Positions 22,002-56,282 of a stretch of 64,000 nucleotides of DNA are shown piece after piece. The DNA lies in contig NZ_CP069338.1 in assembly GCF_016859125.1 (NCBI RefSeq), positions 12,465,501 to 12,529,500 of the forward strand. Direction: 5' to 3'. The translations under genes and the position numbers were made by a program. The first letter of the stretch is position 1; the number at the start of each line of letters is the position of its first letter. The notes below the pieces were generated by a model. That model saw only the letters and a list, made by a program, of their open reading frames with translations, did not search any database and was not told the DNA's origin. The stretch comes from Archangium violaceum. Its GTDB lineage: Bacteria; Myxococcota; Myxococcia; Myxococcales; Myxococcaceae.

Positions 22002-25000
22002 ATGAAGGACATGGAGCCGCGGGCGAAGGAGGAGTCGGGCACCGGCGCCATGGAGGAGGAACCCACCCTCGTCCGGAGCCTCTCCTCGCCGCCGCCGGAG
22101 ACCCGCGAGGACCTCGAGCAGTTGGGGAACGCCGCCACCCAGGTCCGCAGCCTCGCGCCACGGCCCTTCCGCGAGCCCACCTCCTCCACGCCCCGCGCGA
22201 CCGGGCCCCTGCCCAGGGCCCCCGGCAATACCCTGGCGGGCCGTTACACCGTGCTCAACCCGCTCGGCCGCGGAGGCATGGGCGAGGTGGTGGCCGCCTA
22301 CGACTCGCGGCTGGACCGGCGCGTGGCGCTCAAGCTGCTCCGCCGGGAGTGGGACACCGGCCAGTCCCAGGATGACCTCGAGGCGCGCATGTTGCGTGAG
22401 GCCCAGGCCATGGCCCGCCTCTCGCATCCCAACGTGGTGGCCATCTATGACGTCGGCACGCTCGAGGACGGCTCCATCTTCATCGCCATGGAGATGGTGG
22501 AGGGGCAGACGCTGCGGCGCTGGTGCGAGCAGGCCCCACGCACCTGGCGGGAGATCCTGACGGTGTACCTGGCCGCCGCACGCGGGCTGGCGGCCGCGCA
22601 CGAAGCGGGCCTCGTCCACCGCGACTTCAAGCCCGAGAACGTCCTGGTGGGGAACGACGGGCGGGTGCGGGTGACGGACTTCGGCCTGGCGCGAGCGGAG
22701 TCCTCCCCTCCCCTGGCCGCGCCCTCGACTCCACCGTTGCAGCTGCCACAGGGCGCCCTGGACAGCCCCCTCACGTTGCAGGGCACGCTGCTGGGCACGC
22801 CCCGCTACATGGCTCCCGAGCTGCTACGGGCCGGCTCCGCCGACGCGCGCAGCGATCTGTTCGCCTTCTGCGTGGCCCTCTACGAGGCGCTCTACCAGCA
22901 ACACCCGTTCTCGGGCGCCACGCAGGCCGAGTCCATCCAGGCCCAGCTCGAGGGCCGGGTGAAGCCCCCTCCCGAGGAGACGGAAGTGCCCGCGTGGGTG
23001 GCGAACACGCTGCTCCAGGGATTGAGGGCGGACCCCTCGCGGCGCCCCGCCTCCATGGAGAAGCTGGTGGCGGCGCTGGCGGACGACCCCGAGGCGCGGC
23101 GCCGGAGCCGCCGACGCGCGATGGCCGTGACGGCGCTGGTGACGGGACTGACGGCACTGACGCTCTGGAGTTGGTTCCCGCTCGGGGCGCAGGAGTCGGC
23201 GTGCGCGCACCTGGAGCGCAGGCTCACCGGCACGTGGGACGACACGGTGAAGGCACGGATGAAGCAAGCCTTCCTGGACACCCGGCTGCCGTACGCGCGG
23301 GACACCTTCACGCGCGTGTCCGCGCTGCTCGACGGCTACGCGGGGACGTGGGTGCGGATGCGGACCGAGGCGTGCGAGGTCGGCCAGGAGCAGGAGCTGT
23401 CGCCGCAGGATCCGCTGGTGTTGCAGGTGTACTGCCTGGAGCGGCGGCGCGGCCAGCTGCGCGCGCTGACGGAGGTATTCGCCCAGGGCCCCGATGCGGG
23501 CAACCTGTCGAAGGCCGTGCAGGCGGTGCAGTCCCTGCCCTCCCTGGACGCCTGTGCGGATGCCAAGGCCCTGACGGCAACGGTCCCGCCGCCCGAGGAT
23601 GCGGCGGTGCGAGCCAGGGTGGCGACCTTGCAGGAGAAGGTGGACCGGCTGGACACGCTGCGGGAGGCCGGGAGGTACCGCGAGGCGCTGTCGTCCAGCG
23701 AGGAGCTGCTGCGGCAGGTGGAGAAGGTGGGCTACGAGCCCCTCCTGGCACAGGCGCTGTACCAGGTCTCGTACTTGAAGGAGCTGGCCGGGGACTACGC
23801 GGGCTCCGAGGCCCTGGCGCGGCAGGCCATCCCCGTGGCGGCGCGGAGCAGGAACCTGGCGCTGGTCGCCGAGACGTGGGTGCTGCTGTTCCGTCAGGTG
23901 GTGTGGCGGCAGGCTCGCCACGCGGAGACGACGGGCCTGCAGCTGGCGATGGAATCGGCCATGGAGGTCGCGGATGACGATCGGATCCGCGCGGAAGCCC
24001 TCAACACCGAGGCCATCGTGTTCCAGGAGATGGGCAGGTACGAGGAGGCCCGGACCCGGTACGAGCGCTCGCTGGAGCTGCGCAAGAAGGCCCTCGGGCC
24101 CGAGCACGCGAAGGTGGCGGCCTCGCTCAACAACCTGGGCACCGTGCTCGGGGAGATGGGGAAGTACAAGGAGGCGCGGGCCTCGTACGAGAACGCCCTG
24201 CTCATCCGGCGCAAGGCGCTGGGGTCCGATCATCCGCTCGTGGCCCTCTCCTACAGCAACCTGGGCACCGCGCTGGGCGCGATGGGCAGGTACGACGAGG
24301 CCCGGGACTGGTTCGAGCACGCGCTGGCCATCCGCAAGAAGGTGCTGGGGCTGGAGCATCCCGACGTCGCCAGCTCGCTCACGAACCTGGGAACGGCGCT
24401 GGACCCACTGGGCCGGTACGAGGAGGCGGTGACGTTGTACGAGCAGGCGCTGGCCATCCGGGAGAAGCTCCTGGAGCCGGAGCACCCCGACATCGCCAGC
24501 ACCCTCAACAACCTGGGCAGTGCGCTCCGGGGGTTGGGCCGGTATCCGGAGGCGCGGGCACGGCTCGAGCGAGCGCTGTCCCTGCGCGAGAAGGTGCTGG
24601 GCCCCGAGCACCCGGATGTGGCCAGCACGCTCAACGAGCTGGGCCAGGTGCTCCGAGCCCAGGGGAAGCACGAGGAGGCCCGGTCACGGTACCTGCGCGC
24701 CCTGGCCATCCAGCGGAAGGCACTGGGACCCGAGCACCCCGACATCGCCGTCTCGCTCAATGGGCTGGGCAACGTGAACCGGGACATGAAGAAGTACGAG
24801 GAGGCACGGGCCCGGCTCGAGCGGGCGCTGGCCCTGCGCGAGAAGGCGCTGGGACCCGAGCACCCCTTGGTGGCGGAGTCGCTCGACAGCCTGGGCCGGA
24901 CGCTGGTGCGACTCGGGAGCTGGGACGAGGCCGGACGCGCGCTGGAGCGGGCACTGGCGCTCTGGGAGAAGGAGTCGAGGCCCTCGCCCCGGGGTTACGC

Positions 25001-34047: not shown

Positions 34048-34099
34048 TTGTAGAAGGGCGGCCCACGCGGTTCGGTGGTCCGCACGGCTTCAAGCAGTT

Positions 34100-34186
34100 G
34101 GAGGAGTGGCCGAGCGGCTGAAGGCAGCGGTCTTGAAAACCGCAGGTGGCGCAAGCTTCCCGTAGGTTCGAATCCTACCTCCTCCG
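34100..34186 (+). tRNA. tRNA-Ser (anticodon TGA)
   Basis: GGAGGAG pairs with CTCCTCC in a 7-bp acceptor stem with G discriminator. The anticodon stem GCGGT/ACCGC presents TGA at 34134-34136, and the T-arm GTAGG/CCTAC closes on TTCGAAT. A long class II variable arm is present, as for serine. The 3' CCA is not encoded. It reads UCA codons. Confidence 0.95.
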
Positions 34187-34229
34187 ATTTTGTTCTTGTG
34201 GTATGCGGTTCTTTGACAGTAAAGGCAGA

Positions 34230-34319
34230 GGAGAGATGGCCGAGAGGCTGAAGGCACAGGTTTGCTAAACCTGCATACTCGAAAGGGTATCGAGGGTTCG
34301 AATCCCTCTCTCTCCGCCA
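34230..34319 (+). tRNA. tRNA-Ser (anticodon GCT)
   Basis: GGAGAGA pairs with TCTCTCC. The anticodon GCT lies at 34264-34266 in a CAGGT/ACCTG stem, the variable arm is long, and the T-arm is GAGGG/CCCTC. CCA is encoded at 34317-34319. It reads AGC and AGU. Confidence 0.95.
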
Positions 34320-34328
34320 CTCATCTTG

Positions 34329-34378
34329 GTTGTGGTAGCGCGAAAGAGGTTGTGGTACAGAGGCTGCGGTTGTGGTAG
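34329..34378 (+). repeat. Three GGTTGTGGTA direct repeats with 20-bp period
   Basis: GGTTGTGGTA begins at 34329, 34349 and 34369, exactly 20 bases apart, in the spacer between tRNA-Ser(GCT) and tRNA-Arg. A fourth partial copy, TTGTGGTA, is at 34196-34203 in the preceding spacer. Confidence 0.75.
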
Positions 34379-34400
34379 AGCGGTGAAAAGGAAACGGCAA

Positions 34401-34477
34401 GCTCCCTTAGCTCAGCTGGATAGAGCGTCGGACTACGAATCCGAAGGCCGGAGGTTCGAATCCTCCAGGGAGCGCCA
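34401..34477 (+). tRNA. tRNA-Arg (anticodon ACG)
   Basis: GCTCCCT pairs with AGGGAGC. The anticodon loop CTACGAA in a TCGGA/TCCGA stem presents ACG at 34435-34437. CCA is encoded at 34475-34477. A34 of this tRNA is the classic bacterial substrate for deamination to inosine, and tadA lies 24 bases downstream. Confidence 0.96.
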
Positions 34478-34501
34478 CCCTTTCCCCTCACCCCATTCTC
34501 C

Positions 34502-34969
34502 ATGAGTCTGGACGAAGCTTTCATGCAGCAGGCGCTCGCGCTCGCGCGGGAAGCCGCTGGGCTCGGGGAAGTTCCTGTCGGAGCGGTCGCCGTACACGAT
34601 GGCAAGGTCATCGGGGTCGGCTTCAACCGGCGGGAAATAGACCGGAACCCTCTGGCCCACGCGGAGATCTTCGCGCTGGACGCGGCCTCCAAGGCGCTGG
34701 GAGCGTGGCGGCTCACGGGTGTCACCCTGTATGTGACGCTGGAGCCGTGCGCGATGTGCGCTGGAGCGTTGGTCCAGTCGAGGGTCACCCGTCTGGTCTT
34801 CGGAACGAAGGATCCGAAAGCCGGAGCCGTTGGCTCGCTCTACAACCTGGCCGAGGAGCCCCGGCACAATCACCGGCTCCAAGTGATGAGTGGAGTGTTG
34901 GCGGACGAGAGCCGCCAGATGCTGAAGGATTTCTTCGAGCGACTGCGCGAGAAGAAACGCGACAAGTGA
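34502..34969 (+). CDS. tadA: tRNA-specific adenosine deaminase TadA
   Basis: The 155-residue zinc deaminase converts A34 of tRNA-Arg(ACG) to inosine, letting one tRNA read CGU, CGC and CGA. The HAE motif (NPLAHAEIFAL, near residue 53) gives one zinc ligand and the catalytic Glu, and LEPCAMCAGAL (near 84) gives the two cysteines. Length is normal. The gene lies between tRNA-Arg(ACG), its own substrate, and tRNA-Ser(CGA), which starts 5 bases after the stop, so the mRNA and tRNAs are probably one transcript. Confidence 0.96.
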   Translation: MSLDEAFMQQALALAREAAGLGEVPVGAVAVHDGKVIGVGFNRREIDRNPLAHAEIFALDAASKALGAWRLTGVTLYVTLEPCAMCAGALVQSRVTRLVFGTKDPKAGAVGSLYNLAEEPRHNHRLQVMSGVLADESRQMLKDFFERLREKKRDK

Positions 34970-34974
34970 ATATT

Positions 34975-35061
34975 GGAGAGCTGGCCGAGTGGTCGAAGGC
35001 ACCTGACTCGAAATCAGGCATACCGGGAACGGTATCGTAGGTTCGAATCCTACGCTCTCCG
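34975..35061 (+). tRNA. tRNA-Ser (anticodon CGA)
   Basis: GGAGAGC pairs with GCTCTCC. The CCTGA/TCAGG stem presents CGA at 35009-35011, the variable arm is long, and the T-arm is GTAGG/CCTAC. No CCA is encoded. It reads UCG. Confidence 0.95.
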
Positions 35062-35074
35062 CAGAGTGTCTCAT

Positions 35075-35161
35075 GGAGAGGTGGCCGAGCGGTTGAAGGC
35101 GCACGCCTGGAACGCGTGTATATCTGAAAGGGTATCGTGGGTTCGAATCCCACCCTCTCCG
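35075..35161 (+). tRNA. tRNA-Ser (anticodon GGA)
   Basis: GGAGAGG pairs with CCTCTCC. The CACGC/GCGTG stem presents GGA at 35109-35111, the variable arm is long, and the T-arm is GTGGG/CCCAC. No CCA is encoded. It reads UCC and UCU. Confidence 0.95.
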
Positions 35162-35185
35162 TAGTTGTTTCAGTCATTGAAGAGC

Positions 35186-39572: not shown

Positions 39573-40166
39573 ATGACTCCTGATCCGCTCAACCGCCTGG
39601 TCGCCCAGCTCGCGAAGCTCCCTGGCATCGGGGAGAAGACGGCGCAGCGTCTGGCGTTCCACATCCTCCGCTCTCCGGGCGAGTACGCCCAGGAGCTGTC
39701 CCAGGCCATCCGCGAGGTGAAGGAGAAGGTGCACCTGTGCACCCGCTGCTTCTCCCTCACCGATGCGGAGCTGTGCGGCTTCTGCCGGGACAACCGCCGT
39801 GACGAGCGCGTCCTGTGCGTGGTGGAGACGTTCGCGGACCTGATGGCGCTCGAGCGCACCCGGGAATTCAAGGGGCGCTACCACGTGCTGCACGGTGTGC
39901 TCTCGCCCCTGGACGGCGTGGGCCCCGAGCAGCTGCGCATCAAGGAGCTGCTCACGCGTCTGGGAGACGGGCATGTCGAGGAGATCATCCTCGCCACCAA
40001 CCCGGACGTGGAGGGCGAGGCCACCGCGCTCTACCTCACGCGACTGCTCAAGCCGATGGGCATCCGCGTGAGCCGCATCGCCCAGGGCCTGCCCATGGGC
40101 GGAGACCTCGAATACGCCGACCAGGCCACGCTGGCCAAGGCGCTCAGCGCCCGGCGAGAGCTGTGA
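39573..40166 (+). CDS. recR: Recombination mediator RecR
   Basis: The 197-residue product helps RecFO load RecA on gapped DNA. The N-terminal helix-hairpin-helix (LAKLPGIGEKTAQRLAFHIL), the four-cysteine zinc finger (LCTRCFSLTDAELCGFC), the Toprim domain (VVETFADLMALE...ATNPDVEGEATALYL) and the C-terminal GLPMGGDLEYAD are all intact. It ends 10 bases before the convergent kinase gene. Confidence 0.97.
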   Translation: MTPDPLNRLVAQLAKLPGIGEKTAQRLAFHILRSPGEYAQELSQAIREVKEKVHLCTRCFSLTDAELCGFCRDNRRDERVLCVVETFADLMALERTREFKGRYHVLHGVLSPLDGVGPEQLRIKELLTRLGDGHVEEIILATNPDVEGEATALYLTRLLKPMGIRVSRIAQGLPMGGDLEYADQATLAKALSARREL

Positions 40167-40174
40167 GACCCCTG

Positions 40175-40197
40175 GGCTACCGTGTGACGCGGTAGCC
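40175..40197. terminator. Short hairpin between convergent recR and the kinase
   Basis: GGCTACCG pairs with CGGTAGCC around TGTGACG; one arm includes the last codons of the kinase gene. There is no T-run. Confidence 0.35.
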
Positions 40198-41949
40198 GAA
40201 GGGCAGCACCACCGTCACTTCCTTGTCCCGGTGCGCGGGGAAGCGCAGGCGCTCCACCTGCTTCTCCAGACACCTGCCCACGGGCCGCTTCGCCAGGGGC
40301 CCCTGCGTGGCCGCGTTCGCCTTGCCCGAGGAGTAGATGGTGAAACGCACCTGCACATCCCCCTCGTCCGCGGGCAGGTCGCGCTTGTACTGCTCGAAGC
40401 ACGTCATGATGCGCGCCCGGTTGCGCGACACCACGCGTTGGATGTCCGCGGCCTCCAGTGACACGCGCGACTTCGTCGTCTTACGCGCCGATGCCTTCAC
40501 CGGAGGTGGCGGCTCGGCCTGGACCTCTGGCGGAGCGGCGGCCACGACGGCCTCTGGCGTGGGAGCCGGTTCCGCCGGCACGGGCGGCGGGGTGACCGGC
40601 CGCGCCTCGGCGACGGCGGCCGGAGCCACGGCGGCTCCTGGTGACGCGGCGGCGGGCACCTCGGGGCTCGCCGAAGGCACGGGATTCGACGGCGGCGGAG
40701 TGGCAGCGCTCACGGGTGCGAGCTCGCGCCCCACCACGAACGCCCCACCCGCCAGCAGCAGGCAGCCCGCCACGAGCGCGGCGACGACTCCCCCGCGACG
40801 CGAGCGCTGGACCGTCGGGATGCCCGTCCCGGACCGCGAAGGGACGACACTCGTCCGGGTTTCGAAGGACGCGGTGGGCGTGGCCCCGGAGTACGTCGGG
40901 AAGGAACCGGACGACAGCGACACGGGGATCCCCACCATCCCCAGCGTCGCGAGCGTGGGGATGCGAGTCTTCTCCGCGTAGCGCTGCTCTCCGAAGCTGG
41001 TGCGCAGGTACGCGGCGAGGTGGGCTCCGGTCGTCGGCTGGGGCTCGCGCGCCAGGATGCGCTCCAGGTCGTCGGCGAACTCCGCGGCGGTGGCGTGGCG
41101 GTGCGCGGGCTCATGCGACATGGCCTTGAGGACCACCGCCTCCAGCTCCGGGGACAGCTCGGGCCGCAGCGCCCGGGGTGGCTGGTAGTCGCCCTCCATC
41201 AACGCGTTGAGCACCGCCAGATCGTTGTCCCGGGCGAAGGGCCGCACGTGGGTGAGGGCCTCGTAGAGGCTCACGCCCAGCGAGAAGATGTCCGCGCGTC
41301 GATCCACCTCGGCGCCCCGGGCCTGCTCCGGCGCCATGTAGACGTACTTGCCCTTCACCACGCCGGTCCGCGTGTGGGCCAGGCGCGACTCGGCCTTGGC
41401 GATACCGAAGTCCAGCACCTTCACCTGTCCCTCGTACGTCACGTACAGATTGGAGGGTGAGATGTCGCGGTGGACGATGTTCAATCGCCGGCCCGACTCG
41501 TCGGTGAACTCGTGGGCGTAGTGCAGACCGCGCGCCGCGTCGGCGAGCACGCGCAGCACCAGCGGAATGGGGACGTACTCGCCCCGGAAGCTCGCCGTGC
41601 GCACCGTGGTGGAGAAGTCCTCCCCCGGCAGGTACTCCATGCAGATGAAGTAGCAGCCGTCGGCGAAGCCCAGCTCGTGGATCTGCACCACGTTGGGGTG
41701 CACCAACCGCGCCGCCAGCCGTGCCTCGTCGCGGAACATCTCCACGAAGTCCGGCAGGCCCGACAGGTTGGCCAGCATCCGCTTGATGACGACGTTGCGC
41801 TCGAAGCCATCCGCCCCGAGCCGCTTGGCGAGGAAGATCTCCGCCATGCCGCCCTCGGCCAGCTTGCGAACCAGCACGTACTGACCATAGGGCCGGGGCT
41901 GAGCCTCGGTGCTCCCTCCGGTCTCCGGCCTGGCTTGGGGGGTCGTCAT
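40177..41949 (-). CDS. Ser/Thr protein kinase with membrane helix and TonB/AgmX-like C-terminal domain
   Basis: The 590-residue product starts at ATG 41949. The kinase domain (about residues 24-300) has AEGGMAEIFLA, the Lys in NVVIKRML, HRDISPSNLYV, DFGIAK and MAPEQ. A linker and membrane helix near 381-403 (VVAALVAGCLLLAGGAFVVG) follow, then a Pro/Ala-rich stretch. The last 90 residues form a TonB-C-like domain: VVSRNRARIMTCFEQYKRDL, VQVRFTIYSSG, CLEKQVERLRFP, VVLPFGYRV. The two cysteines match those in the GltG-like protein at 54924. It is the last gene of a three-gene operon. Confidence 0.9.
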   Translation of the reverse strand: MTTPQARPETGGSTEAQPRPYGQYVLVRKLAEGGMAEIFLAKRLGADGFERNVVIKRMLANLSGLPDFVEMFRDEARLAARLVHPNVVQIHELGFADGCYFICMEYLPGEDFSTTVRTASFRGEYVPIPLVLRVLADAARGLHYAHEFTDESGRRLNIVHRDISPSNLYVTYEGQVKVLDFGIAKAESRLAHTRTGVVKGKYVYMAPEQARGAEVDRRADIFSLGVSLYEALTHVRPFARDNDLAVLNALMEGDYQPPRALRPELSPELEAVVLKAMSHEPAHRHATAAEFADDLERILAREPQPTTGAHLAAYLRTSFGEQRYAEKTRIPTLATLGMVGIPVSLSSGSFPTYSGATPTASFETRTSVVPSRSGTGIPTVQRSRRGGVVAALVAGCLLLAGGAFVVGRELAPVSAATPPPSNPVPSASPEVPAAASPGAAVAPAAVAEARPVTPPPVPAEPAPTPEAVVAAAPPEVQAEPPPPVKASARKTTKSRVSLEAADIQRVVSRNRARIMTCFEQYKRDLPADEGDVQVRFTIYSSGKANAATQGPLAKRPVGRCLEKQVERLRFPAHRDKEVTVVLPFGYRVTR

Positions 41950-41957
41950 GCGGGGCC

Positions 41958-43928
41958 TCACTTCAGGGTGCGCACCGAATACACGTCCGGTGCACCGGGG
42001 CGAGACATCTTGAATACGACGCGGGGCGGCCGTCCCTCGGAGGATACCCAGGTATCGAACCGGTGTTTCGAATCCAGGGACAGGGGCCGTCCGTTCACGA
42101 ACAGCTTCGCATCCACCGGGGCCACTCCGGACACGCGGACGCGACGCCCCGCCCGCTGCCCTTCCCGAGGCGCGTTGACGATGAGCGTGGGCACCGAGTT
42201 GTCGAAGACGAGCTCCAGCTTGCTCATCCTCCCGCCGCGCACCGGCCTTCCATCCGCCGCCACCGGGGTGATGGACCAGACGAAGCTGCCCTCCTTCAGG
42301 ACGCCCGCCTCGAGCGGCACCTGGGGCGCGGAAGCGGACCGCTCCGCCACGGGCTGACCGAGCGCGCCGCTCCGGTACACCGCGACCTTGTAGGACGCCG
42401 CGCCCGGCTCGGCCTGGCAGGTGAAGGTGACGGCCGGGGGCTTGTCCTGGAAGAAGATGGTCGTCTTCTCCGGCCCCTCGGGCACGCGGTTGCGCAGCCG
42501 GCCCAGCGCGCCCTTCGCGGAGCGCTCCGGACCGAAGAACGCACTGCCACGCGCCACCTCCGCGCCTTCCGGCCGCCGCACCCGCCAGTACAGCGAGCCC
42601 TTCACGGGAGCCATCACGTTGACGAAGCCGCGCCGGGCCACACCCGCCAGCACCGGCTTCTTGAACCCGGCGTCCGAGGCCACCTCCACCCGCACCTCGC
42701 CGGCCTCCTCCCACGTGAGGGCCACCTCCGACGGACGCTTGTGGAACACCTGCTGGCCCGCGGTCGAGGACAGCGCGAGAGGGGCCTGCTCCACGGCCTC
42801 GACACGCGCGGTGGCCGCTCCCGCCACGGTGGCCCGCTCGCCCGCGCGCAGGGACTCTCGGGCCTCGCCGCGCACCAGCGTCACGTCACCCGCGCGCGAG
42901 TCCACGGTGAAGCCATCCCCGGTGCGCCGGACGTCGAGCCGCGCCGCCCCGTCGCTCTCCAGCGAGAGCCCTGGCAACACCACCCGGCTGGCGCGGCCCG
43001 GAGCCAGCATCAGCCCCAGCTCGCCCTTGAGCAGCGCCAACCGCGCCTCGTCCGTCGAGCCGCGCCGCTCCACTCCCTCCACCACCAGCTCCCCCCCCGG
43101 GCCGAGCGAGAGCGTGGACTCCGAGCCCTCCAGTGTCAGCAACGCCGAGCCCTGGCGTGCGCGCACGCTGTCTCCGGCCTTCAGCGCCTCGCCGTCGCGG
43201 TCCACCCCGCGCCACCGGGCACTCCCCTTCTGGCGCCACTCCGTACGGCCCGTCCCGGCATGCACCGTCACCTGGACGGTCGCCAGCTCCAGCACCCGCG
43301 TCGTCACGCCCTCGGGCTTCACCGACAGCACCTGCCCCCGCGTGGCCCGCACCGACTTCCCGTTCTTCGCCACCACCTCCACGGTGCCGAGCAGCACCTC
43401 CACACGGCCCTCGTCCTGCCCCACCTCGACCCGAACCTCGCTCTCCTCCGAGCCCGTGCGGGTGAGGCCGAAGGGCGTGAGCACGGTGAGCTGTACCCGC
43501 GGGCCCGCCTTTCCCCGCGTCCGCTCCGCCGGCACCCGAGACAGCACGAAGCCTCGCGACACCGCCACCACCACGCCGCTCGCATCCTCATCGAGCAGGA
43601 AGCGCGCCTCCGGCCCCACCTCCACCGTGCGCCCGTCGGCGAAGAGCACCGTGGCGCCTCCGTCCGCGCCCGTCTCCAACGCGTCACCGCGCCACAGCGG
43701 GCCCCGCTCCGCGGGCGCCTGCTTCCCTCCGCGCTCGAGCCGCACCTCGCCCGTCACCGTCGTGAGCCGCGCGAGCTCCACCACGCCCGCGTCCACCACC
43801 TGCGCCCGTGCTGGCTTCTCCACCTCGGCGGAGGGAGCGGGTGCGCGAGGCAATGGCTCTTCCTCCCCGCAGCCAGTGGCCAGCAGCAGGCACAGCGCGG
43901 ACAGGAGTCGAGGGCGGAGGGTGCTCAC
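41958..43928 (-). CDS. FecR-like lipoprotein, 656 aa
   Basis: A lipobox (LLLATGC, Cys20) is followed by a short Pro-rich spacer and at least two FecR-type beta-rich domains. The first (about 45-210) has VTGEVRLERGG, PLWRGDALETGADGGATVLF and GRTVEVGPEARF; a second begins near 240 with GEALKAGDSVRARQGSALLTL. The C-terminal 250 residues contain fibronectin-like/Ig-like strands (YWRVRRPEG, SFVWSITPV). It is probably an outer-membrane or periplasmic sensor scaffold. Its ATG overlaps the stop of the next gene upstream, and the kinase starts 8 bases after its stop. Confidence 0.85.
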   Translation of the reverse strand: MSTLRPRLLSALCLLLATGCGEEEPLPRAPAPSAEVEKPARAQVVDAGVVELARLTTVTGEVRLERGGKQAPAERGPLWRGDALETGADGGATVLFADGRTVEVGPEARFLLDEDASGVVVAVSRGFVLSRVPAERTRGKAGPRVQLTVLTPFGLTRTGSEESEVRVEVGQDEGRVEVLLGTVEVVAKNGKSVRATRGQVLSVKPEGVTTRVLELATVQVTVHAGTGRTEWRQKGSARWRGVDRDGEALKAGDSVRARQGSALLTLEGSESTLSLGPGGELVVEGVERRGSTDEARLALLKGELGLMLAPGRASRVVLPGLSLESDGAARLDVRRTGDGFTVDSRAGDVTLVRGEARESLRAGERATVAGAATARVEAVEQAPLALSSTAGQQVFHKRPSEVALTWEEAGEVRVEVASDAGFKKPVLAGVARRGFVNVMAPVKGSLYWRVRRPEGAEVARGSAFFGPERSAKGALGRLRNRVPEGPEKTTIFFQDKPPAVTFTCQAEPGAASYKVAVYRSGALGQPVAERSASAPQVPLEAGVLKEGSFVWSITPVAADGRPVRGGRMSKLELVFDNSVPTLIVNAPREGQRAGRRVRVSGVAPVDAKLFVNGRPLSLDSKHRFDTWVSSEGRPPRVVFKMSRPGAPDVYSVRTLK

Positions 43929-45427
43929 CGGTTCTTGGGGAAGAGATCGACGTTGAAGATGGCTTGTTCGCCGTCCTGCACGGTGACGACCTTGGTCTGG
44001 GACAGGTGCCCGGGAGCCGAGAAGACGAGACGATACCTACCTTGCTTGAGCTGGACCTGGAAAGACCCCCGGGCATCCGTGCGGCGGCGGAGCTTCGCCT
44101 CCGGAATGATCAGCCAGGCCCGGAGCGGCCTGCCCCGCCGCACGCTTCGTACCTGTCCCGACAGGGTGGCGAGCGCTGCTTTTTGCCTGGAGGCCAGTGA
44201 CACGGGCAACCCCGTCTCCGTTCCGGCGACGATGACCACGGCCTCCTGGGTGGCTCGAAAACCCTCGGCGGAGATATCCACTGACAGCGGACCCGGGGTG
44301 AGTCCCTCCACGCGGGCTCGACCCTCCGCGTCGGTGAGCACCTCGGTTCCCCCCACGGACACGGCCGCGCCCGGAAGGGGCTTCCCACCGCGCGAGTCCA
44401 CCACGGTCACGAGCAGGGAGCCCACGCGCGGCTCCTGGCGCACGCGCACCACCCGCTCCTCGCGCCCACCGCTCGTCACCGTGAAGCGCTCCTCCGCGGG
44501 CAGATAGCCACCCACGCTCACCCGCGCGAGCACCTCGCCCGGAGGCAGCACCACACCCGGCAACCGCCCGTCCAGGCCGGCCACGCGGGGCGCCTGATCC
44601 ACCCCCTCCGCCGTCAACACCACCCGGGCCTCGGGCAGGGCCTTGCCGGAGTCCGCGTCCACCACCGACAGGAAGAGCTCGCCCGTCTCCGGCCGCGCGC
44701 GGACATCCCCACCCCCCAGGGAGAGCTCGAGGGCCACTCCCGCGCGGCTGATGACCTGTCGGGACGTCCACCCCTCCGCGCTCGTCAGCACGTCGCGCAC
44801 ATACTGATAGTCGAGCACCAGCGCCCCACCCCACCCGTCCCGCCGAACCACCGGGACGAGCAACGCGCCACCAGCCGCGAAGCCACTCGACGTGGAGCCG
44901 AGTGCCACGGGCACCTCGCCGCGCACCTCCACGCGCAGATGCCCGGGCAGAGGCACGAGGACGCGGGCTCCCACCAGCGCGGCATGGCGCACCGTGGGCA
45001 CGAGCCGCACCTGTCCCGAGCCGGAGAACGCCGGCAGCTGCGCGAAGCCGTAACCGGCGCTCAGCTCGGCACGCACCGGCCCCAGGAAGACACGCGCCGC
45101 CGGCCCCACCGAGGCCCGCAGCAGGCCGCCGCTCGTGATGAGCTCCGTCTCCCGGGAGAAGCCGAGGCCCTCGCGCTGCACGCCGGCCCACGCCCCCCAC
45201 CACCCCCCGCCGAACACCGCGGCCCACAGCGCCACGTCATTGGGCGTCAGGCCCCCGTACGTCACCGCCGGCACGGACTCCTGCGCGCCCTCGCGGAAGG
45301 CCAGCCCGTAGCGCAGTCGCAGCGAACCCCACTCCGCGTCCTCGGACCCCGCCGAGGCGCTGATCGGCCCCAGCAGGGTGAGCACAAGTAGGAGGGCGGA
45401 TAAAAAGGTGGGCGAGCGAACCGGCAC
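43925..45427 (-). CDS. Envelope protein with beta-barrel-like N-terminus and carboxypeptidase-regulatory repeats
   Basis: GTG 45427 gives a clear signal peptide (SPTFLSALLLVLTLLGPISASA); ATG 45478 is an alternative. Residues about 40-270 show amphipathic strands with Gly/aromatic pattern, like a small outer-membrane barrel. The C-terminal half holds repeated carboxypeptidase-regulatory-like/PEGA folds: GELFLSVVDADSGKALPEARV, VGSLLVTVVDSRGGKPLPGAAV, ATLSGQVRSVRRGRPLRAWL, with a final QVQLKQGRYRLVFSAPGH. It starts a three-gene operon that is divergent from mglB. Confidence 0.75.
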   Translation of the reverse strand: MPVRSPTFLSALLLVLTLLGPISASAGSEDAEWGSLRLRYGLAFREGAQESVPAVTYGGLTPNDVALWAAVFGGGWWGAWAGVQREGLGFSRETELITSGGLLRASVGPAARVFLGPVRAELSAGYGFAQLPAFSGSGQVRLVPTVRHAALVGARVLVPLPGHLRVEVRGEVPVALGSTSSGFAAGGALLVPVVRRDGWGGALVLDYQYVRDVLTSAEGWTSRQVISRAGVALELSLGGGDVRARPETGELFLSVVDADSGKALPEARVVLTAEGVDQAPRVAGLDGRLPGVVLPPGEVLARVSVGGYLPAEERFTVTSGGREERVVRVRQEPRVGSLLVTVVDSRGGKPLPGAAVSVGGTEVLTDAEGRARVEGLTPGPLSVDISAEGFRATQEAVVIVAGTETGLPVSLASRQKAALATLSGQVRSVRRGRPLRAWLIIPEAKLRRRTDARGSFQVQLKQGRYRLVFSAPGHLSQTKVVTVQDGEQAIFNVDLFPKNR

Positions 45428-45769
45428 GGCCGGAGTATAGTGAATACCCGACAGGGCCCCCGGAAACTGGAAGCGCATGGAAATCCGTGGTCCCATGCCC
45501 TGGATGGTCCCCCCTCGCATGACCGCCTCCCTACTCTCGCCGGACCTGAGCAGGCAACCACTGTGGGCACGTGCCTGCACGCCAGCCCCCGGAGCACGGG
45601 CTTCCACGGAAGGCGGTGGCTTCTTGCCGGGTTGGAAGGGCTTTGCTAAAGCTCCCCCGGTCGGGAGCGCCGCACCTAACCTCCGAAATTCATTCCGGAA
45701 ACCTACGGGGAACCCTCGGGGGCCGCGGAAGTACAAGGTCGAGCGAGACGCTTAGGAGCGTAAACGCCC
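45428..45769. other. Divergent intergenic region between the kinase operon and mglBA
   Basis: No gene is supported here. The near-palindromic GTATAGTGAATAC (45435-45447) offers -10-like TATAGT (plus) and TATACT (minus) boxes. TAGGAG at 45753-45758 is the mglB ribosome binding site. No clear -35 could be assigned. Confidence 0.4.
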
Positions 45770-46249
45770 ATGGGCACGCAATTGGTGATGTACGAAGAGG
45801 AGTTCACCAAGATCAACGCGGTTTGCGACCGGCTGACCAAGGACGCGAACGCGAAGGTGGTGTTCCTCGTCGACAAGAACGGCCAGCTCATCTCCTCCGC
45901 GGGACAGACGCAGAACATCGACACCACCTCGCTGGCCTCGCTGACGGCCGGTAACGTGGCGGCGATGGGCGGCCTCGCGAAGTTGATTGGCGAGAACGAG
46001 TTCCCCCACCAGTTCCACGAGGGGGCCAAGGACTCGCTCTACATGACCATCGTCGGAAGCCGGGTGGTCCTGGTCGTCATCTTCGACAATCGGACCAGTC
46101 TCGGTCTGGTGCGCCTGCGCATCAAGAAGGCCAGCGACGAGCTGACCAAGATCTTCGAGAGTCTGGTGAAGAAGACGGATGGTCCCGGGGTCGGCTCGCC
46201 GTTCGCCGAGATTTCCGACGACGATATCGACAACCTCTTCAGCGAGTAA
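45770..46249 (+). CDS. mglB: MglB, Roadblock/LC7 GTPase-activating protein for MglA
   Basis: The 159-residue product is a Roadblock/LC7 protein that forms homodimers, stimulates GTP hydrolysis by MglA and marks the lagging cell pole in gliding myxobacteria. The fold pattern is a first helix ([15 protein letters not shown]), the [17 protein letters not shown] hairpin, [22 protein letters not shown], and a [19 protein letters not shown] strand pair. The acidic C-terminal tail ([13 protein letters not shown]) is also seen in M. xanthus MglB. mglA follows 11 bases later, matching the known mglBA operon. Confidence 0.97.
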
Positions 46250-46260
46250 CCCGGGAAGCC

Positions 46261-46848
46261 ATGTCCTTCATCAACTACTCGTCTCGCGAAATCAACTGCA
46301 AGATCGTCTACTACGGTCCCGGGTTGTGCGGGAAGACGACGAACCTGCAGTACATCTACAACAAGACCGCCGCGGAAACGAAGGGCAAGCTCATCTCGCT
46401 CTCCACCGAGACGGATCGCACGCTCTTCTTCGACTTCCTCCCGCTGTCGCTGGGTGAGATCCGCGGCTTCAAGACGCGCTTCCACCTCTACACGGTGCCG
46501 GGTCAGGTCTTCTACGACGCCAGCCGCAAGCTCATCCTCAAGGGCGTGGACGGCGTGGTGTTCGTGGCCGACAGCCAGGTGGAGCGCATGGAGGCCAACA
46601 TGGAGTCGTTGGAGAACCTCCGCGTCAACCTGGCCGAGCAGGGCTACGATCTGAACAAGATCCCCTACGTCATCCAGTACAACAAGCGTGACCTACCCAA
46701 CGCGGTGACCGTGGAGGAGATGCGCAAGGCGCTCAACCCGCGCAACATCCCCGAGTACCAGGCGGTCGCCCCCACCGGCGTGGGCGTCTTCGACACGCTC
46801 AAGGCCGTGGCCAAGCTGGTGTTGACGGAGTTGAAGAAGGGCGGCTAG
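46261..46848 (+). CDS. mglA: MglA, Ras-like polarity GTPase
   Basis: The 195-residue small GTPase switches the leading pole and activates both the Agl-Glt gliding machine and type IV pili in M. xanthus. The P-loop GPGLCGKTT has Gly21 and Lys25. Arg53 (the intrinsic arginine finger), Thr78 in place of the usual Asp of DxxG (TVPGQ), Gln82 and NKRDL for guanine specificity are all present. These are the diagnostic MglA features. The product is full length and intact. Confidence 0.98.
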
Positions 46849-54923: not shown

Positions 54924-56282
54924 ATGGCTTCCCCTCAGCACAGCAGGATCCTCCGCGTCGGCCTCGTCCAGGACGGGCGCATCCTCGAGGAGCGTCACCT
55001 GCGCCAGCCCGGTGACTTCACCGTCGGGCAGGATCCCAAGAACACCCTCGTGCTGCCGCTGCCGGACCTGCCGGCCAGCTTCCCCGTCTTCGAGTACCGG
55101 GCCAACCAGTACAGCCTCGTCTTCAACGAGGACATGAAGGGCCGGGTGAACCTCGGCTCCTCGGACGTGGACTTCCAGACGCTGCGCACCCAGGGCATGG
55201 CCATGGAGCGCGGCGATCAGTACGTCCTGCCCCTGCAGGAGAGCGCCCGCGGGCTGGTGGAGCTCGACAAGGATCTCCGCCTCCTCTTCCAGTTCATCAC
55301 CCCCCCGCCCGAGTCCGAGAAGCCGCAGCTTCCCCCGGACCTCCAGGGCGGCTCGTGGCGGACCATGGACCGGATGTTCTTCGGCATCCTGGCCGCCTCG
55401 CTGCTCATCCACTTCTCCGGCGCGGCGATCATCATCGCCTCCGAGCCGCCCCCCGAGCCCGAGCTGGAGCTGGATCAGCTGGATGACCGCTTCGCCCGGG
55501 TGTTCCTCCCTCCGCCCAGGCCCGAGGAGCCCAAGCAGCAGGCCGCCGACAAGGCCCAGGCGGAGGCCCCCGAGGAGAAGAAGCCCAAGGAGAGCAACCC
55601 GGACGACAAGCCCGCCGAGACGGCCTCCAGGCCCGCCAACGCGGAGGAGGCCGCCGCCCGGAAGGCCGAGGTGGCGAAGAAGGTGGCGGGCAAGGGCCTG
55701 TTGAAGATCCTCGGCTCCTCGGGCAGTGGCAGCGGAGGCGCGTTCGCGGACGTGCTCGGCGGCAGCACCAGGAGCGGCGACATCGCCTCGGCGCTGGCGG
55801 GCGCGGGCGGAGTGGGCGTCGCCACCGAGGCCTCGGTGGGCAAGAACGGGCCCCGCGGAGGTGACACCGGAAAGGTGGCCGGCATCGGCGACCTCGGCAC
55901 CAGCGGCGGCGGCAAGGTGGACCTGGGCTCCAAGAAGGAGGTCGAGGTCTCCGGCCGCGTCACCAGCTCCGCCCCCGAGGTGGAGAGCTCGGAGGTGGAC
56001 CGGGACGCGCTCGCCCGCTACGTCAAGAACCGCCTCCGGTCCATCCAGGGCTGCTACGAGAAGGAGCTCAAGCGCAACCCCAACCTCAAGGGCAAGGTGC
56101 TGGTGCGCTTCAGCATCAGGCCCACCGGGCGGACGGGGGAGATCGAAATCGAGGAAAACACCCTGGGCAATGACGCGGTGGCCAGTTGCATCCGGACGGT
56201 CATCCGCGGCTGGGTGTTCCCCTTCAAACCAGACGACGATGTTTCGGTGGCCTACCCGTTCGTCTTCTCGCCCGCGGGGTAG
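54924..56282 (+). CDS. GltG-like inner-membrane protein with FHA-like and TonB/AgmX-like domains
   Basis: The 452-residue product has an FHA-like N-terminal domain (about 10-115: RVGLVQDGRILEERHL, FTVGQDPKNTLVLP), a single membrane helix at about 151-173, a long acidic Pro/Ala/Lys linker and a Gly-rich segment. The C-terminal TonB-like domain (about 360-452) contains VKNRLRSIQGCYEKELKRNP, VLVRFSIRPTG and SCIRTVIRGWVFPF. The two cysteines probably pair. This is the plan of GltG and NfsG, which span from cytoplasm to periplasm in myxobacterial trans-envelope complexes. Confidence 0.85.
   Translation: MASPQHSRILRVGLVQDGRILEERHLRQPGDFTVGQDPKNTLVLPLPDLPASFPVFEYRANQYSLVFNEDMKGRVNLGSSDVDFQTLRTQGMAMERGDQYVLPLQESARGLVELDKDLRLLFQFITPPPESEKPQLPPDLQGGSWRTMDRMFFGILAASLLIHFSGAAIIIASEPPPEPELELDQLDDRFARVFLPPPRPEEPKQQAADKAQAEAPEEKKPKESNPDDKPAETASRPANAEEAAARKAEVAKKVAGKGLLKILGSSGSGSGGAFADVLGGSTRSGDIASALAGAGGVGVATEASVGKNGPRGGDTGKVAGIGDLGTSGGGKVDLGSKKEVEVSGRVTSSAPEVESSEVDRDALARYVKNRLRSIQGCYEKELKRNPNLKGKVLVRFSIRPTGRTGEIEIEENTLGNDAVASCIRTVIRGWVFPFKPDDDVSVAYPFVFSPAG

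Follow-up and report, generated by a model that had tools for sequence, protein, structure and literature searches.

The closest described counterpart of the locus analyzed here is the masABK operon of Myxococcus xanthus (MXAN_1927-1929, with MasK encoded by MXAN_1929), whose genes masA, masB and masK are cotranscribed (PMC3546991). Both social motility and pilA expression were reported to be lost upon deletion of masABK, and complementation of the deletion required pilA plus masABK (PMC3546991). The mglA8 mutation was suppressed by a masK allele, and a MasK-MglA interaction and tyrosine phosphorylation come from earlier work cited in the same paper (PMC3546991). In yeast two-hybrid assays MasK interacted with MasB and with MasA(77-175), but not with MasA(196-505), and of 15 moving cells, 11 displayed the strongest MasK-mCherry signal at the leading pole (PMC3546991). 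The published model places MasA in the inner membrane, with one helix at 58-77 and another at 177-195, a topology supported by one PhoA-positive fusion, the fusion on the cytoplasmic side being uninformative; two helices were predicted in MasK (PMC3546991).

The words TonB and AgmX are absent from the main text of this 2013 masABK paper (PMC3546991). Among the matches listed for the MasK tail or for AgmX/TonB-tailed kinases in the open-access literature, PMC3546991 was the one MasK paper recognized; PMC2877116 names MasK within a kinase classification, and "mask" in PMC12368150, PMC2907295, PMC7332107 and PMC12691611 denotes image masks or the verb, not MasK. The masK gene and the family of its tail domain were known already; new with respect to the literature searched are the combination of kinase and tail, the revision of MasA and the exchangeable module.

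TonB and TolA possess a Pro-rich or extended linker, and an S-x3-H motif in the transmembrane helix of TonB couples it to ExbBD. The barrel of a TonB-dependent receptor has 22 strands. FecA-FecR-FecI surface signalling comprises an outer-membrane barrel, a FecR-domain protein and a cytoplasmic output, and GltJ carries GYF/zinc-ribbon-like parts. The route from outer-surface events to the control of polarity and motility in myxobacteria is, to our knowledge, an open question.

Gene order of the locus and architecture of its products

The window, i.e. the whole stretch of 64,000 nucleotides that was analyzed, contains the following features.

39573..40166 (+): recR, ORF convergent with masK; conserved neighbour, published layout
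40177..41949 (-): masK ortholog, 590 aa, ATG start; from the ORF, profiles and the published MXAN_1927-1929 layout
40198..40455 (-): MasK tail domain, residues 499-584, NF033768, predicted TonB/TolA-like fold; profile and model
40270..40272 (-): invariant Cys560 of the MasK tail; 28/28 MasK tails, 10/10 other tails of the genome
40399..40401 (-): invariant Cys517 of the MasK tail; 28/28 MasK tails, 10/10 other tails of the genome
40456..40728 (-): Pro/Ala-rich linker of MasK, residues 408-498; composition
40729..40794 (-): transmembrane helix of MasK, residues 386-407; hydropathy
41092..41880 (-): kinase domain of MasK, residues 24-286; Pfam PF00069 (Pkinase), 102 bits
41958..43928 (-): masB ortholog, FecR-domain lipoprotein, 656 aa; FecR profile, lipobox by reading
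43925..45427 (-): masA ortholog with signal peptide, predicted 10-strand barrel and carboxypeptidase-regulatory-like domains; GTG start uncertain
45770..46249 (+): mglB, ORF divergent from masABK; published layout
46261..46848 (+): mglA, ORF beside mglB; published layout
54924..56282 (+): second tail protein, GltG-like; NF033768

The three plus-strand ORFs flanking the operon are those we take to be recR, mglB and mglA. The order masA-masB-masK was found together with divergent mglBA and convergent recR, and 8 nt separate the masB stop from the masK start. Because this synteny and spacing agree with the published masABK layout, the gene is, as judged from its sequence context, masK, the third gene of masABK and a known gene with a published MglA link. 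A promoter and terminator scan of 40100-46000 found none.

The kinase domain of MasK possesses the catalytic residues HRD160, DFG180 and APE206. In a hydropathy scan of the whole protein the sole segment above the usual threshold was 388-406, and the linker behind the helix comprises 91 residues, with 26% Pro and 25% Ala. Another Pkinase match in the window lies at 22245-23060 (+), genome positions 12487745-12488560, and a tRNA cluster with four tRNA-Ser (tga, gct, cga, gga) and one tRNA-Arg at 34099-35162.

The MasB of the window scores 23.3 bits against the FecR profile, just below the cut-off of 24.0, and the FecR domain was found in 22/22 orthologs at E up to 0.01. The structure model of MasA (pLDDT 83.7, pTM 0.45) displays ten long strands at 40-246 followed by Ig-like domains, and profiles of the carboxypeptidase-regulatory domain match the protein. 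The barrel part resembles OpcA (Z 21.6, 190 residues, 2.7 A) and OmpT (Z 17.4). The model makes it most likely that MasA forms a barrel in the outer membrane and exposes its Ig-like domains to the periplasm, in which case MasABK would reach across the whole envelope. None of the three operon genes encodes a sigma factor, a kinase is present, and MasA, modelled with about 10 strands, does not match a TonB-dependent receptor.

An outer-membrane MasA would call the published inner-membrane topology into question. In an M. xanthus strain the 505-residue MasA would start with a typical signal peptide; the first proposed helix corresponds to model residues 73-91, the second ends at 201, and both fall on predicted beta-strands. 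The single positive PhoA fusion is compatible with either topology. MasA(77-175), the fragment to which MasK bound in yeast, is part of the predicted barrel, and this contact may thus be an artefact.

Family, predicted fold and conservation of the MasK tail

Four motifs had been claimed in the preliminary description to be shared by the C-terminal ends of MasK and the protein encoded at 54924, and all of them were found in both translations. I-x2-C-[YF]-E reads I-M-T-C-F-E in MasK and I-Q-G-C-Y-E in the 54924 protein, and G-x-V-x-VRF-x-I reads G-D-V-Q-VRF-T-I and G-K-V-L-VRF-S-I, respectively; C-L and LPF in MasK correspond to C-I and YPF in the other tail. The comparison of residues 500-590 with TonB-C/AgmX profiles that had been proposed as a check was run, and NF033768, the model of the AgmX/PglI C-terminal domain (curated cut-off 40 bits), matches residues 499-584, with 68.1 bits and E 5e-19 on the isolated last 107 residues and 63.3 bits on the whole protein. 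The same model scores 100 bits on the 54924 protein and matches 28/28 orthologous MasK tails at E up to 1. In a profile-profile comparison, the 28 MasK tails aligned with the genome's 10 other tails, the 54924 tail included, with probability 99.1 and E 7e-19 over 92 columns. A chance motif is ruled out by the NF033768 score and this profile-profile match.

Neither Pfam TonB_C nor TIGR01352 matches the MasK of the window. Among the 28 MasK tails, at E up to 1, TonB_C was found in two (best 0.0018) and TIGR01352 in seven (best 0.0015). The GltG tail of the same genome passes TIGR01352 with 34.2 bits (cut-off 27.1), and the 54924 protein reaches 22.1 bits against Pfam TonB_C, where the cut-off is 24.6.

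The model of the MasK tail (pLDDT 90.7) has the order helix-helix-strand-strand-helix-strand. Its top Foldseek matches are TonB C-terminal domains, with a best E of 1.2e-3 and none below 0.001. In a second structure comparison against the PDB, rows 1-22 are all TolA, TonB or FusB (Z 4.4-6.3), and row 23 (Z 4.0) is unrelated; the list is consistent, with Z values that are moderate (all below 8) and obtained from a predicted model. FusB is a TonB homologue. When PDB sequences were searched with the tail profile, TonB likewise ranked first, at E 0.14. The MasK tail is therefore predicted to share the C-terminal fold of TonB and TolA. The earlier wording of a TonB/AgmX-like tail holds for the AgmX/PglI family and for the predicted TonB/TolA fold, but not for the Pfam TonB_C profile. 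As to the proposed place of this tail, in the periplasm and within an envelope complex, an AgmX/PglI-type domain behind a membrane helix on a cytoplasmic-type kinase has the form expected, and the complex is plausible because of MasK's operon partners.

No S-x3-H motif was found in the MasK helix, and 71 of 73 sequences lack His in the helix segment; the two with His represent one protein, in which it lies at the segment edge. The helix of the 54924 protein reads S-L-L-I-H, resembling the TonB motif for ExbBD and unlike MasK. That protein had been called GltG-like, which stands for the family of its tail and fails for its identity: the curated model gives it 167 bits against a cut-off of 650, so that it was rejected as GltG and is a GltG paralog, encoded downstream of mglBA and of genes for TPR-like proteins. 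Other loci of the genome encode proteins that exceed the cut-off for GltG (L009, 933 bits) or for GltJ (721 bits). A second copy of the 54924 protein, also elsewhere in the genome, has a tail 82% identical to the 54924 tail (L011). The source genome further encodes a 165-residue ORF with a signal-peptide-like start and little beyond the tail domain (L016).

The tail was found on the kinase in 27 of 34 named loci; three of the others end at a contig edge and four are other kinases without a tail. A further 29 loci all have kinase and tail, established for L025 and L040 by reading. Among 20 matches of greater divergence, 19 fall on ORFs with a kinase match, with that of L096 being partial and L086 being a different double kinase; in the last, L087, the ORF is cut. 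The search behind these last two sets, at E up to 1e-12, gave matches in 80 of 145 genomes, from which 30 loci and 20 further matches were examined, and misses in it are not absences: G052 was unmatched and yet L262, from this genome, contains the operon including a MasK with tail. Among the complete MasK orthologs examined, none lacks the tail. The M. xanthus strain possesses the same tail with the same cysteine pair. The suppressor mutation of a 2002 study of masK reportedly maps to the 3' end of the gene, a position that would be in or near the tail.

In comparisons with five congeners and one further relative (L024 and L048 being one sequence), dN/dS was 0.19-0.40 for the tail, 0.24-0.38 for the kinase, 0.49-0.79 for the linker and 0.68-0.93 for the stretch between kinase and helix. 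The MasK tail is under purifying selection comparable to that on the kinase domain. The catalytic-loop pattern HRD[IV]SPSN was found in 73 of 75 MasK sequences, a set that includes repeats from two overlapping collections; the other two gave no pattern match. A segment above hydropathy 1.6 lies between kinase and tail in 72 of 73 sequences (1.48 in L025), and the linkers vary in sequence and in length, from 47 to 149 residues. Whole-protein scans of the 27 named orthologs revealed one hydrophobic region in 25 and a weak second one in L070 and L072. Two real helices in MasK, as predicted in PMC3546991, would put the tail in the cytoplasm and would count against the model proposed below.

Tail kinases and their partners across the Myxococcota

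Tails matching NF033768 are present in 112 of 116 sampled Myxococcota genomes, with up to 35 per genome. The suggested survey of kinases with this tail was carried out, and such kinases recur in the phylum. In seven genomes at least 5 of 143 tail ORFs are kinases, a lower bound as 36 of these ORFs are incomplete at one end. The source genome has the kinase on one of its 11 tails (ORFs read), among at least 150 kinase matches.

MasB-like genes (E up to 1e-10) were found in 62 of the 116 genomes, namely 50 of 55 from the source family (Myxococcaceae) and 12 of 61 from outside it, with ten candidates at most being scored per genome. Eleven of the 12 outside neighbourhoods were inspected, the remaining one being a weak match in G181. 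A kinase with one or two tails adjoins masB in nine of these 11 loci. A MasA match is present in eight of the nine, mostly to the Ig-like C-terminal part, which is a common domain; L245 gave no match to the MasA profile. In five of the nine (L244, L245, L246, L251 and L255) the kinase is convergent with masB, and these are tail kinases of another family. In L252, MasA is inverted. The genes thus remain adjacent through such strand rearrangement. L250 and L254 have MasB without a neighbouring tail kinase. L244-L246 were first found through their tail kinases and are recovered by the MasB search as well.

Two tandem tails per kinase chain occur beside masAB in L249, L253 and L256. The tail kinases of L244-L246 start with a zinc-ribbon-like CxxC...CxxC segment (Zn_ribbon_4 below cut-off), a type also found in the GltJ-like L013. 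The masB copy at L246:3108-5345 contains an in-frame stop, from either a sequencing error or a pseudogene. Among five second copies in the source family, tail kinases are present in L257 and L261. In L259, a kinase at 2 kb from masB has a divergent tail that scores below threshold; the sequence of L258 ends where the tail would begin, and L260 has no tail kinase.

In genus g6 (L264-L266) a tailed masK lies between mglBA and recR, and masAB is not nearby; the MasB survey listed two of its three genomes, G072 being the third, and gave no match in G074 and a weak fragment only in G075. The tail thus acts there without MasAB or has another partner, which is evidence against a strict need for MasAB. 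The g6 kinases have a longer branch than their neighbours in the kinase tree. Tail kinases without masAB in the examined stretch were also found in L247, L248 and L084, and in L086, which lies on a 3-kb contig. No mglBA match was found in the sequence around the masAB-kinase sets outside the source family.

A quick-method tree of the kinases (106 rows) is compatible with one clade for the MasK of the source family and the tail kinases of other families (p 0.83). A single lineage for all masAB-linked tail kinases was rejected: the tree that holds them together is 240 log units worse, with a p of 5e-58 that is a guide only, as the group, which includes the second-copy kinases, was picked after the tree had been seen. 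It is unlikely that the masAB-linked kinases form one clade. From this rejection it follows that tails of one kind, with the same neighbouring partners, are preceded by kinase domains from distinct lineages, which were probably exchanged on a common chassis.

A putative signalling chain across the envelope

We propose, with a probability of roughly 0.7, that MasA, MasB and MasK form a chain across the envelope in which the tail is the receiving end and the signal runs inwards. MasK would most likely be a single-pass inner-membrane kinase whose N-terminal kinase domain is cytoplasmic and meets MglA there. Its Pro/Ala linker would extend the TonB/TolA-like domain, with the conserved Cys pair, through the periplasm, and MasB would act as a FecR-like lipoprotein between MasA and MasK. 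An event at the outer membrane could then pass from MasA to MasB and on to the MasK tail. This input may alter how active MasK is or how it clusters at the leading pole, and the output of MasK would reach MglA and the control of pilA. Inward signalling is the likeliest mechanism, with its direction inferred, as are the periplasmic tail, its putative disulfide and contact made via the tail. In favour of the chain are the published MasK-MasB contact in yeast, the FecR domain of MasB and the tail kinases that adjoin masB in nine of 11 loci outside the source family. The chain is contested by the published inner-membrane MasA, by the need for pilA in complementation, by L250 and L254, where MasB has no tail kinase beside it, and by the pTM of 0.45 for the MasA model.

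The probability given here overlaps with those of the next two readings, since they share parts of the architecture. The tail could instead be a localization anchor that holds MasK to peptidoglycan or to an envelope complex at the pole, leaving the kinase to be regulated from the cytoplasm via MglA. This would suit the brightness of MasK-mCherry at the leading pole (11/15 moving cells, PMC3546991), the masK genes of g6 that sit beside mglBA without masAB, and the presence of most tails on non-kinases (10/11 in the source genome). However, the occurrence of one kind of tail on distinct kinase lineages next to masAB suggests an input module more than an anchor at the MglA pole, and the masAB-kinase sets outside the source family showed no mglBA match in the examined stretches; we regard the anchor as unlikely, though it deserves serious weight. 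Control might also run outwards, so that MglA sets the kinase, which in turn shifts or frees a TonB-like arm acting on MasA, e.g. for gating of the barrel or of an adhesin. The predicted TonB/TolA fold and the barrel prediction for MasA fit such control, but the MasK helix lacks the TonB-type S-x3-H, and this direction appears quite improbable. The wide occurrence of the domain (112/116 sampled Myxococcota genomes) could finally mean that a domain so frequent in these genomes has been left behind on MasK as a neutral remnant, with no role in the protein. That is hardly credible and is contradicted by conservation, for the tail is under purifying selection like that of the kinase domain, its cysteines are invariant, and every complete MasK ortholog examined carries it.

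The inward chain from MasA to MasK bears on sensing by MasK, a point that the published account of masABK appears to leave unexplained (PMC3546991): a TonB/TolA-like tail and an outer-membrane MasA would provide a concrete route across the envelope. The phylum-wide linkage of the parts, together with the kinase swaps, suggests a general signalling design. Chances are about even that MasABK represents, as type member, a class of Myxococcota kinases acting across the envelope. Its members would combine an outer-membrane barrel bearing periplasmic Ig-like domains with a FecR-like lipoprotein and with a kinase that spans the periplasm by its TonB/TolA-like, disulfide-capable tail. Such a class would be FecA-FecR-like with phosphorylation as its output, kinase lineages being swapped onto one sensory chassis that is wired to MglA in the source family.

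The operon shares with that of M. xanthus the gene order, the divergent mglBA, the convergent recR, the lipoprotein MasB and the membrane kinase MasK, and differs from masABK as published in the TonB/AgmX-like tail, in the predicted location of MasA, given there as the inner membrane, and in the number of MasK helices, given there as two. GltG (PglI) and GltJ (AgmX) of the gliding machinery possess the same NF033768 domain after a transmembrane helix and linker; neither has a kinase, GltG carrying an FHA domain, and the two are components of the Agl-Glt motor (PMC3169522). TonB and TolA resemble MasK in their transmembrane helix, linker and C-terminal domain of the same predicted fold, whereas MasK carries an N-terminal kinase domain and the conserved Cys pair and lacks both S-x3-H and a Pfam TonB_C match. 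The MasA barrel, of about 10 strands, differs from the 22 strands of a TonB-dependent receptor. MasABK is like FecA-FecR-FecI in its predicted barrel, its FecR-domain protein and its cytoplasmic output. Unlike in that system, MasB is a lipoprotein, and a kinase bearing the TonB-like tail, not a sigma factor, provides the output.
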